From contig NZ_FORA01000002.1 in the NCBI RefSeq assembly GCF_900113875.1, positions 248,001-312,000 on the forward strand: DNA of 64,000 nucleotides, in the 5' to 3' direction. The notes under the pieces were generated by a model. The model was not told the DNA's origin and did no database searches. It saw only the letters and a program-made list of their open reading frames with translations. This DNA comes from Jannaschia pohangensis. Its GTDB lineage: Bacteria > Pseudomonadota > Alphaproteobacteria > Rhodobacterales > Rhodobacteraceae. This document shows positions 4,650 through 61,080 of the stretch, piece by piece (the first letter of the stretch is position 1; every line of letters begins with the position of its first letter). Position numbers and translations under genes: made by a program.

Positions 4650-5246
4650 ATGATCTTCGCAATTCTCGCCATGGGGCTGATCGTCGTCGCCTCCAACATC
4701 GGGGTCCAGTTCCTGATCGCCGACGGATGGCTCACCTGGGGGGCGTTCAGCTATCCGCTGGCCTTCCTCGTCACGGACGTCACCAACCGCCTTTACGGGC
4801 CGCAAAAGGCGCGGGTCGTCGTGCTCGCGGGCTTTGCCGTCGGGCTTGTCTGCTCGCTGATCGGGACACAGATCATGGGCGAGTTCGGGCCGCTTGTGAC
4901 GCTGCGCATCGCGATGGCGTCGGGGCTGGCGTTCCTTGTGGCGCAGATGATCGACCTTGCCGTCTTCTCGCGCCTGCGGGAGCGGCAGTGGTTCGTCGCA
5001 CCGCTGACCTCCTCGGTGATCGGGTCGGTGGTGGATACGGCGCTGTTCTTCACCATCGCCTTCGCCGGTTTCCTCGCGTTTCCCGTGGCTTGGGGCGACG
5101 TATCCTGGGCGCAGGAGGCGACGGCTGTGGGGCCGCTCTGGGTCGGGCTGGCTTTGGCGGACTGGTCCGTCAAGATCGCGGTCGCGCTTTTGGCGCTGGT
5201 GCCTTTTTGGGCCATTACGCGAAAGTTTGCACAACGGGTTGCTTAA
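4650..5246 (+). CDS. yhhQ: Queuosine precursor transporter (VUT/YhhQ family)
   Basis: Inner-membrane protein of 198 residues with about six hydrophobic segments and YhhQ-family sequence features (FSYPLAFLVTDVTNRLYG near the N terminus, conserved Asp and Asn in the second helix). The family imports preQ0/preQ1 for queuosine synthesis at tRNA position 34. It follows the MnmC2-like gene by 61 bases, so two wobble-modification functions are adjacent. The short leader contains a hairpin next to the start codon. Confidence 0.85.
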   Translation: MIFAILAMGLIVVASNIGVQFLIADGWLTWGAFSYPLAFLVTDVTNRLYGPQKARVVVLAGFAVGLVCSLIGTQIMGEFGPLVTLRIAMASGLAFLVAQMIDLAVFSRLRERQWFVAPLTSSVIGSVVDTALFFTIAFAGFLAFPVAWGDVSWAQEATAVGPLWVGLALADWSVKIAVALLALVPFWAITRKFAQRVA

Positions 5247-5316
5247 AGGGGGTTGACGCATACCAGATGTGTGCCACTTTCGGGTCATCGGCAACCCATT
5301 GAAAGGAGGTGATCCA

Positions 5317-5373
5317 GTGTCAAGAAAGATGGTGGAGAAGTGCGTCGGGACAATCCTGGAGACGCGTGGCTGA
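5317..5373 (+). CDS. 18-residue small ORF behind an extreme Shine-Dalgarno
   Basis: GTG start, 18 codons, TGA stop; the peptide begins SRKMVEKCV after the initiator. AGGAGG ends 7 bases before the GTG, ideal spacing, inside a 15-base match to the anti-Shine-Dalgarno end of 16S rRNA. The peptide has one cysteine, is basic and resembles nothing I know. It may be a real micropeptide, a leader peptide that controls folding of the surrounding RNA, or a chance frame inside a non-coding RNA. Confidence 0.4.
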   Translation: MSRKMVEKCVGTILETRG

Positions 5374-5441
5374 GGCAGCCCTTACCACGTGATATCAACA
5401 GGTTGAGGGCTCTCTAACCGACCCCACCTCCTGAACTTTCG

Positions 5442-5477
5442 GAAGGCCGCCCCGTGTCGAAGGGCGGCCTTCTTTCC
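5442..5477 (+). terminator. Intrinsic terminator of the small-RNA unit
   Basis: An 11-bp GC-rich stem (5442-5452 with 5462-5472, core AAGGCCGCCC/GGGCGGCCTT), 9-base loop, then a T-rich tail. It isolates the upstream transcript from arfB. Confidence 0.85.
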
Positions 5478-5601: not shown

Positions 5602-6024
5602 ATGCCGCTGCGCATCACAGACAAGATCGAGATCGCCGACTGGGAAATCACCGAAAGCTTCGTGCGCGCGTCGGGCCCGGGCGGGCAGAACGTCAACAAG
5701 GTGTCGTCGGCGGTGGAACTGCGGTTCGAAGCGGAGCGCTCCCCGTCCCTGCCCGGCCCGGTCAAGACGCGGCTGCGGCGGCTGGCGGGGCGGCGGTGGA
5801 CGAAGGACGGGGCGGTGGTGCTGCAGGTGTCCGAAGAACGCAGCCAGGCCCGCAACCGCGAAATCGCCCGCGACCGCCTGACCGACCTGATCCGCGCCGC
5901 CACCGTGACCCCCAAACCCCGCGTCAAAACCCGCGTCTCCGCCAACCAGAAGCGCAAGCGCGTGGAGGCGAAGAAGAAGCGGGGGGAGGTCAAGGCGTTG
6001 AGGGGTGGGGTGGAGGATGTTTAG
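5602..6024 (+). CDS. arfB: Alternative ribosome-rescue peptidyl-tRNA hydrolase ArfB
   Basis: Releases peptides from ribosomes stalled on truncated mRNA by hydrolysing peptidyl-tRNA in the P site. The 140-residue length fits the YaeJ/ArfB family and not the much longer release factors. The catalytic GGQ motif is at residues 27-29 (SGPGGQNVNKV). The C-terminal tail is rich in Lys and Arg, as needed to sense the empty mRNA channel. The ATG follows a GGAG-containing leader. It is a single gene, followed by a GC hairpin and the AT-rich insert. Confidence 0.92.
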   Translation: MPLRITDKIEIADWEITESFVRASGPGGQNVNKVSSAVELRFEAERSPSLPGPVKTRLRRLAGRRWTKDGAVVLQVSEERSQARNREIARDRLTDLIRAATVTPKPRVKTRVSANQKRKRVEAKKKRGEVKALRGGVEDV

Positions 6025-22379: not shown

Positions 22380-22456
22380 GGCGGTGTAGCTCAGTTGGTT
22401 AGAGCAGCGGAATCATAATCCGCGTGTCCGGGGTTCGAGTCCCTGCACCGCCACCA
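22380..22456 (+). tRNA. tRNA-Met (anticodon CAT), elongator type
   Basis: 77 bases including an encoded CCA. Acceptor stem GGCGGTG/CACCGCC closes the cloverleaf; the D arm has AGCTCAGTTGGTTAGAGC and the T arm GGTTCGAGTCC. The anticodon loop ATCATAA gives CAT. The anticodon arm and other details fit elongator Met rather than initiator (first base pair is intact) or Ile2. Confidence 0.93.
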
Positions 22457-43109: not shown

Positions 43110-43208
43110 CTTGAGAGGTTGGCGCGGGCAGGTGCTTCGCCAACCTGGTCAGGACCGGAAGGTAGCAGCCACAACGATTACCACTTGGGTCGTCGTCCAG
43201 CCTCTCAC
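43110..43208 (+). ncRNA. ffs: Signal recognition particle RNA (small bacterial type)
   Basis: The universally conserved apical core is present: GGTCAGGACCGGAAGGTAGC, which binds Ffh. GAGAGG (43113-43118) pairs with CCTCTC (43201-43206) to close the rod, and GGTTGGCG/CGCCAACC forms a local 5' hairpin. Ends are approximate by a few bases. Ffh-bound, it directs membrane proteins to FtsY and SecYEG. Confidence 0.93.
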
Positions 43209-43215
43209 CCAGCCG

Positions 43216-60995: not shown

Positions 60996-61080
60996 TGGTG
61001 GGGAGTCCAAGATTCGAACATGGGTGGGTTGCCCCAACGGATTTACAGTCCGCCGCATTTGACCGCTCTGCCAACTCCCC
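60996..61080 (-). tRNA. tRNA-Tyr (anticodon GTA)
   Basis: 85 bases including encoded CCA, with the long variable arm of class II tRNAs. Acceptor stem GGGGAGT/ACTCCCC (5' end at 61080, 3' at 61000-61006). The anticodon loop CTGTAAA gives GTA. T arm GTTCGAATC. Confidence 0.93.

Follow-up and report, generated by a model that had tools for sequence, protein, structure and literature searches.

A conserved Rhodobacterales relative of CC2171 RNA with a predicted lock on its extended Shine-Dalgarno sequence

What might an RNA do that carries an extended Shine-Dalgarno (SD) sequence, an arm complementary to it and an 18-codon open reading frame (ORF)? The question is raised by positions 5253-5477 of the window, the 64,000-nucleotide stretch of Jannaschia pohangensis DNA analysed here. 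This interval lies between yhhQ (4650-5246, + strand) and arfB (5602-6024, + strand), names that come from a reading of the proteins and from an earlier note on this DNA. The letters described in that note (TTGACG, a 15-mer matching the 16S rRNA tail, GTG, 18 codons, the anti-SD arm and the terminator stem) were all found in place, and the features are as follows.

5253-5258, + strand: -35-like box TTGACG, read from the letters; a conserved TTG[ACG]C box
5301-5317, + strand: extended SD GAAAGGAGGTGATCCAG, reverse complement of the 16S rRNA 3' tail
5313-5336, + strand: start-codon hairpin of the consensus fold, TCCA (5313-5316) with TGGA (5333-5336)
5317-5373, + strand: 18-codon ORF GTG...TGA (VSRKMVEKCVGTILETRG); frame, length and stop conserved, peptide free
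5345-5348, + strand: TCGG, pairing with CCGA (5418-5421) within the locked domain of the consensus fold
5372-5383, + strand: post-stop hairpin GAGG-CAGC-CCTT with covarying pairs, beginning inside the stop codon
5401-5403, + strand: GGT, tentatively an anti-anti-SD against 5426-5428 in an alternative hairpin, from pairing counts
5418-5421, + strand: CCGA, partner of TCGG (5345-5348) in the consensus fold
5425-5432, + strand: anti-SD arm CACCTCCT, pairing with AGGAGGTG (5304-5311) as the predicted lock
5441-5473, + strand: Rho-independent terminator hairpin followed by a short T run, from scan, fold and consensus fold

The ORF comprises GTG (5317-5319), 18 sense codons and TGA (5371-5373), and the terminator stem (about 5441-5452/5462-5473) lies directly 3' of the anti-SD arm. 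The earlier note had seen here an independent unit with a promoter box, a structured body and a strong terminator, and its observation was confirmed. The interval folds better than its dinucleotide shuffles (z -2.57), but a simple scan of the unit matched no sigma-70 promoter and gave one terminator-like site, not above the 1.5 that shuffles yield. A TTG[ACG]C box was present 47-50 nt 5' of the SD in 54/67 Rhodobacterales-type loci (defined below); the -10 element, at about 5276-5281, is weak, and transcription would start at about 5288. Elsewhere in the window, a small SRP RNA (43112-43210, +) and two tRNAs (22380-22453, +, and 60999-61080, -) are ordinary.

The extended SD is fully complementary to the 17 nt that precede the terminal T in alphaproteobacterial 16S rRNA, and its last G (5317) is also the first base of the start codon. 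It contains the 15-mer GAAAGGAGGTGATCC (5301-5315), for which pairing with the last 15 bases of 16S rRNA had been claimed; that claim was borne out and the match extends to 17 nt. The tail used for comparison, ...GGCTGGATCACCTCCTTTCT, had matches of 100% identity in replicons of Cereibacter sphaeroides, Rhodobacter, Paracoccus, Gemmobacter, Alloyangia and other Rhodobacterales, in which the rRNA genes are unannotated; it comes from these relatives rather than from the host's own assembly. In the 3.73-Mb genome the 15-mer is present just once, with a chance expectation of about 0.007. Among the 30 loci recovered from 33 BLASTN matches to the whole unit, the extended SD was exact in 22 and had one or two changes in the remaining 8, and GAAAGGAGGTG was unchanged in 29, a conservation that is partly built in because the query included the SD. 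A fixed-SD pattern search gave at least 119 matches and, the pattern being fixed, is mute on SD conservation.

The unit is conserved well beyond the host. BLASTN with 241 bases matched 33/60 genomes including its own, among them all 20 of the genus. A pattern made of AAAGGAGGTG, itself fixed, a spaced RTG start and GGAG was found in 109/149 family genomes, sampled at one per genus, always as a single copy, and its reversed control gave 0 matches; two of the 40 genomes without the pattern (G022 and G026) hold diverged copies. The earlier note had proposed a covariance-model search in relatives, and such a model (R1), built from 56 relatives, scored at least 32 bits in 20/20 genus members, most of which are in the model, and in 14/16 other family members. 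The two exceptions had only a 23.6-bit match (G032) or none (G033), and spurious matches, mostly terminators, reached 24.0 bits in the test on loci and 30.1 bits in the genome search. At the level of the phylum, the 19-mer with GTG or ATG was found in 40/398 genomes, distributed by hand count as 13/27 in the family, 27/108 in other Alphaproteobacteria and 0/263 in other classes.

In total, 179 loci were examined (L001-L180 without L150), comprising 67 of Rhodobacterales type, defined by a peptide motif blind to the stop and bearing a group name that is in part presumptive, and 112 others. Removing six near-duplicates left 61 Rhodobacterales-type loci, and 56 of these form the structural alignment A1; L024, L027, L036, L041 and L087 were omitted as no terminator, or only a late one, was detected in them. 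The corresponding alignment of CC2171-type loci (A2) holds 64 of 68 non-redundant sequences from 83 loci, after exclusion of 7 with no terminator detected and 8 near-duplicates and removal by hand of L044, L050, L130 and L143. The 19-mer also precedes other very short ORFs on contigs L077, L134, L141, L038, L088 and L096, labelled Nitrosomonadales, Burkholderiales, Betaproteobacteria, Phycisphaerales (two) and Deltaproteobacteria, labels that may be binning errors. A 14-codon version (VS..KRCHLAGIAR) is found in Bradyrhizobium and its kin (L052, L058, L063, L064, L074, L083, L084, L098, L111 and L112); its nucleotides hardly vary and its ORF includes CACCTCGCTGGGATCG. The one locus tested, L052, gave no match to the Rfam family RF01867.

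RNAalifold analysis of A1 returned, unprompted, the SD helix GGAGGT/ACCTCC, the helices TCCA/TGGA and TCGG/CCGA, the stop-codon hairpin, a weak helix and the terminator. The pairing of 5425-5432 with the SD, first proposed from the window alone, was therefore recovered across 56 relatives. In the consensus fold, 96.6% of cells were paired compared with 39.8-58.2% for slid partners, and 157 cells were changed on both sides compared with 54.2 in shuffles, all of these counts being inflated by the relatedness of the sequences. The SD/anti-SD helix was paired in 98.8% of cells (six of its pairs counted, 56 relatives). Its changes were, with few exceptions, confined to the anti-SD side and nearly always yielded G-U pairs, with no both-sided change in the 56 relatives; covariation of the lock cannot be shown because the SD side hardly varies. 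One-sided changes would follow from a second constraint that the 16S tail places on the SD side; they are not covariation, and these G-U compatible changes may be mere transitions.

Computed folds of single sequences closed the SD in 60/61 Rhodobacterales-type loci. When every second locus was compared with versions in which the body between SD and terminator was shuffled (31/61), the mean unpaired probability of GGAGGTG was 0.047 against 0.306, and the stretch from the start codon to +17 was no more closed than in shuffles (0.385 against 0.384). A search for SD partners gave a mean z of -1.56, with p<0.05 in only 28% of the 61 loci. Other helices were supported by both-sided changes: at three of the four pairs of the post-stop hairpin they occurred in 12, 21 and 2 sequences, and its loop reads CARN in relatives. 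The pairing of GGT 5401-5403 with 5426-5428 was present in 73.8% of cells with 13 double changes compared with 6.9 in shuffles, and in the wider segment the own partner paired better than cross-species partners (1/2000), so that an anti-anti-SD switch is tentatively kept with moderate support. Two further pairings suggested in the earlier note did not fare as well. Its inner helix 5377-5382/5406-5411 was paired in 40.8% of cells, within the 31-50% of slid versions, and its GGTT/AACC alternative fold was paired in 65.0% with no covariation; conserved instead are the start-codon hairpin TCCA/TGGA, the TCGG/CCGA helix and the stop-codon hairpin. The locking arm of the divergent family member L222 (G034) contains GGATCACCTC, a part-copy of the 16S tail, so that this RNA holds both the complement of the tail and a copy of it.

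In 67/67 Rhodobacterales-type loci the frame set by the start codon is exactly 18 codons long. The ends of the other two frames are scattered between 1 and 41 codons or lie beyond 50 (7 cases), the commonest being after 3 codons in 17/67 and after 1 codon in 29/67. The start is GTG in 65 loci and ATG in 2 (ATG also begins 9 of 30 CC2171 matches picked by model score), and the stop is TAG in 30, TGA in 23 and TAA in 14; TGG was never found at the stop, where 10.3 cases would be expected if both positions varied independently. These data on frame, stop and length point to selection on the ORF frame. The peptide behaved differently: pN/pS was 0.89 within the genus, 0.94 over the 67 loci and 1.05 in 24 CC2171-type ORFs of 25 codons, values from short and partly saturated sequences that give no sign of purifying selection in any of the three sets, and shifted frames were similar (0.81-1.05). 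A functional peptide is therefore disfavoured. The earlier note had named a lack of conservation of the paired arms or the peptide in relatives as evidence against its reading; conservation was seen for the arms and not for the peptide.

Five more divergent family members were read. Three of them (L220, L221 and L222) still have an ORF of 18 codons, although the peptides are unlike, and also a hairpin located at the stop and an arm closing the SD; L220 and L221 are not matched in the whole-unit BLASTN. The other two, L223 (26 codons) and L189 (24 codons), do not have the SD shut in the fold, and because of them the 18-codon lock counts as typical, not universal, within the family. In loci that have the lock, selection on translation seems to concern the positions of start and stop and not the product. 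The retention of start, frame and 18-codon length without a retained peptide looks new.

The earlier note had recognised no described family, a statement that we revise: CC2171 (RF01867), reportedly first described by Landt et al. in 2008, has this SD block together with a short ORF and this terminator in Rhizobiales, Methylobacterium and Brevundimonas relatives. The window scored 36.0 bits against this model (E 4.2e-6 in 471 nt), below the gathering score of 75, and over the whole genome it was the single match (E 8.2e-6). The match runs through the SD block and terminator only, leaving the region of the codon 3-5 arm unaligned. RF01867 passed gathering in 7/15 tested sources, all sharing the SD block (loci of Rhizobium, Methylobacterium (two), Bosea, Microvirga, Pseudolabrys and Brevundimonas). 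Of 385 alphaproteobacterial genomes, 85 match it at E 1e-3 or better and 13 pass the cut-off; in Rfam 15 it misses the Rhodobacterales-type branch, with 33-39 bits in the five family genomes listed against a cut-off of 75.

Both RNAs share the GAAAGGAGGTGATCCAG-GTG-TC block (the CC2171 5'-end feature, GAAAGGAGGTGATCCAG followed by GTG or ATG and TC, is present in the window), a short ORF, a GGAAGGGCCGCCC-type terminator directly after the arm, mostly one match per genome, and, adjoining the terminator, an arm whose partner lies in the region where translation starts. They differ in ORF length, fixed at 18 codons in the window type and 20-26 in CC2171, and only the window type has the post-stop CARN hairpin and the yhhQ-arfB neighbourhood. 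The helix between codons 3-5 and the pre-terminator arm that characterises CC2171 is absent from the window, where the arm pairs with the SD. In CC2171 proper this helix (CATTGTC/GACAATG) was paired in 93.5% of cells with 15 double changes compared with 2.7 in shuffles (64 sequences). Its SD was shut in 24/68 folds, with an unpaired probability of 0.327 compared with 0.272 in shuffles (34/68 loci, every second one), which gives no support to SD closure across CC2171 as a whole; the stretch from the start codon to +17 was if anything more open (0.439 against 0.351). The SD-partner search in the 68 CC2171-type loci gave a mean z of -1.54, with p<0.05 in 41%. The lock of the Rhodobacterales, a conserved arm that closes the SD, with a different arm partner in CC2171 proper, looks new. 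As a suggestive observation on the CC2171 type, the best SD partner lay inside the ORF at +46 to +59 in 57/68 loci; this stretch, for instance CCTGGATC.TCGCCTC in L153, L157 and L104, is a degenerate in-frame copy of the 16S tail.

Intermediates join the two groups. Loci L062, L138, L179 and L180 from other families have a CARN hairpin at +62 to +71 from the SD, as in the Rhodobacterales type, and by eye L223 of the same family has it too; all five differ in having 24-26 codons, the hairpin inside the ORF and, by eye, a CC2171-type arm (for example CATGAAT/ATTCATG in L180). R1 gave L138 53.3, L179 41.7, L062 41.5 and L223 32.6 bits; L180, with 16.5 bits, is within noise, and CC2171-type loci ranged from 8.8 to 37.1 bits, mostly near noise. 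Whatever its score, the best R1 match fell at the place of the RF01867 match in 6/7 other-family genomes with a match (G038, G039, G042, G046, G047 and G049, not G053). Because of the sub-threshold score, the reciprocal R1 matches and the intermediates, we consider the window unit a divergent relative of CC2171 and not a member. RF01867 is listed among the Rfam 15 families whose structure gained one covarying pair, according to the accessible part of that report (PMC11701678). A literature search, with most subscription papers outside its reach, returned no function for CC2171 and no description of the Rhodobacterales unit.

We propose, tentatively and at somewhat less than even chances, that the unit is a conserved CC2171-relative RNA with a predicted SD lock that the 30S subunit opens, likely exposing the ORF and the 3' arm. 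The arm would shut the extended SD, and the 30S subunit would open this lock through its long pairing with the 16S tail; the 18-codon ORF would then likely be translated and the 3' arm likely freed. The signal would be the ribosome and not the peptide, and the ORF, whose stop lies in the base of a hairpin, would set where the ribosome sits and leaves. The output would likely be the RNA itself, acting through the freed arm CACCUCCU beside the terminator, for which SDs in other mRNAs are possible partners. An initiating ribosome would also displace the corresponding arm of CC2171 proper from codons 3-5. The earlier note's idea of a regulator that exposes or hides an extra-strong ribosome site draws support from the arms and the predicted closure, separately from its statement on described families.

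The computed price of the lock agrees with such a role. Opening the SD costs on average 10.3 kcal/mol (sd 3.0) in Rhodobacterales-type loci, and pairing with the 16S tail gains 9.2 kcal/mol for AGGAGG, 18.9 for GAAAGGAGGUG and 28.0 for the full 15-mer, energies that are nearest-neighbour values for naked RNA and leave out ribosome geometry. An ordinary SD would thus hardly pay for opening and a long SD does in the model; because the cost exceeds the AGGAGG gain and lies below that of the full 16S match, the length of the SD likely serves to offset the lock. At the moment of initiation, pairing over the full length as far as the start codon may be impossible. Against the lock stand L223 and L189, which have none and which slightly lowered our confidence, and CC2171 proper, whose SD is shut no more than in shuffles; a ribosome may also bind before the lock can form. 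We regard as doubtful the bolder version in which the RNA measures free ribosomes. Here only a 30S subunit could open the lock, because its cost exceeds what a normal SD repays and stays under what the full tail repays; the freed arm would act in trans on the ribosome sites of other mRNAs, and the ORF would be a ribosome timer with no meaningful peptide. As part of the same reading, the lock would have shifted in Rhodobacterales from the codons to the SD.

Related strategies offer partial parallels. The extended SD of Staphylococcus aureus also pairs beyond the core towards a GUG start, with two more base pairs as against the 15-17 possible in the window, and the accessible part of its report describes no self-lock (PMC13009471). 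The alphaR8/mmgR RNA and the CrfA-SisA sponge show, as here, SD-like and anti-SD-like strands in alphaproteobacterial RNAs; they differ in that the accessible accounts describe no ORF, CrfA is another RNA than the window unit, and the window scored 15.9 bits against alphaR8/mmgR (RF00519), below its gathering score of 41. They suggest that an exposed SD might tie up 30S subunits as a decoy or soak up anti-SD small RNAs of the alphaR8/SisA type, the lock setting the dose. The very strong predicted 16S pairing would fit, and the accessible part of the report on Caulobacter has CrfA sponging the anti-SD-like SisA-D RNAs (PMC12559287). A mere decoy, however, needs no kept frame, stop or length, the SisA core as printed (UUUCCUCCCU) matches the SD only in part, and the SD is predicted shut in all but one of the Rhodobacterales-type folds, which makes this explanation unlikely. 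An ordinary trans-acting small RNA, whose ORF merely protects or times the transcript, would leave the length of the SD and the specific lock unexplained and is quite improbable, even though CC2171 is filed as an sRNA and its Mesorhizobium huakuii copy, MH_s33, stands in a predicted-sRNA list in which, riboswitches apart and as far as the accessible part goes, RNA-seq products were seen for 34/35 entries, all except MH_s6 (PMC5596092).

The remaining explanations place the output in a protein. The unit could be the mRNA of a small protein, the lock tuning its dose in a thermometer-like or autoregulated manner; the start, frame and stop are kept as this demands, and in Caulobacter, ribosome profiling showed translation of two RNAs that had earlier been predicted as non-coding, without names in the accessible part of that report (PMC4117421). 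The pN/pS values in the genus, the 67 loci and the 25-codon CC2171 group speak against a selected product, as do the unlike peptides of equal length in L220-L222, and we rate this as improbable. Genomic context brings in arfB, the ribosome-rescue gene. Downstream on the same strand in 55/67 Rhodobacterales-type loci, within 342 nt in 51, and with yhhQ upstream in 66/67, it could be controlled by a leader in which read-through depends on ribosome supply. A terminator lies in between, however, and an antiterminator was rejected: in the one candidate pairing, of the post-stop segment with the terminator arm, own partners were no better than cross pairs (1777/2000). Neither arfB nor yhhQ was found beside any of the other loci (0/112), and the leader switch for a downstream gene raised in the earlier note is correspondingly doubtful. 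An effect in cis on arfB may nevertheless occur in the Rhodobacterales-type loci, because the order yhhQ-unit-arfB is kept there; as an explanation of the unit, the arfB leader is very improbable.

If the reading of a lock opened by the 30S subunit is right, this would be a dedicated bacterial RNA with the 30S subunit as its ligand and an affinity set by the length of pairing with the 16S tail, and ribosome supply would be a directly readable regulatory signal. It would also give the CC2171 family a function. The ORF appears to be kept for its length and position and not for its peptide, and small-protein annotation would misread such an ORF.
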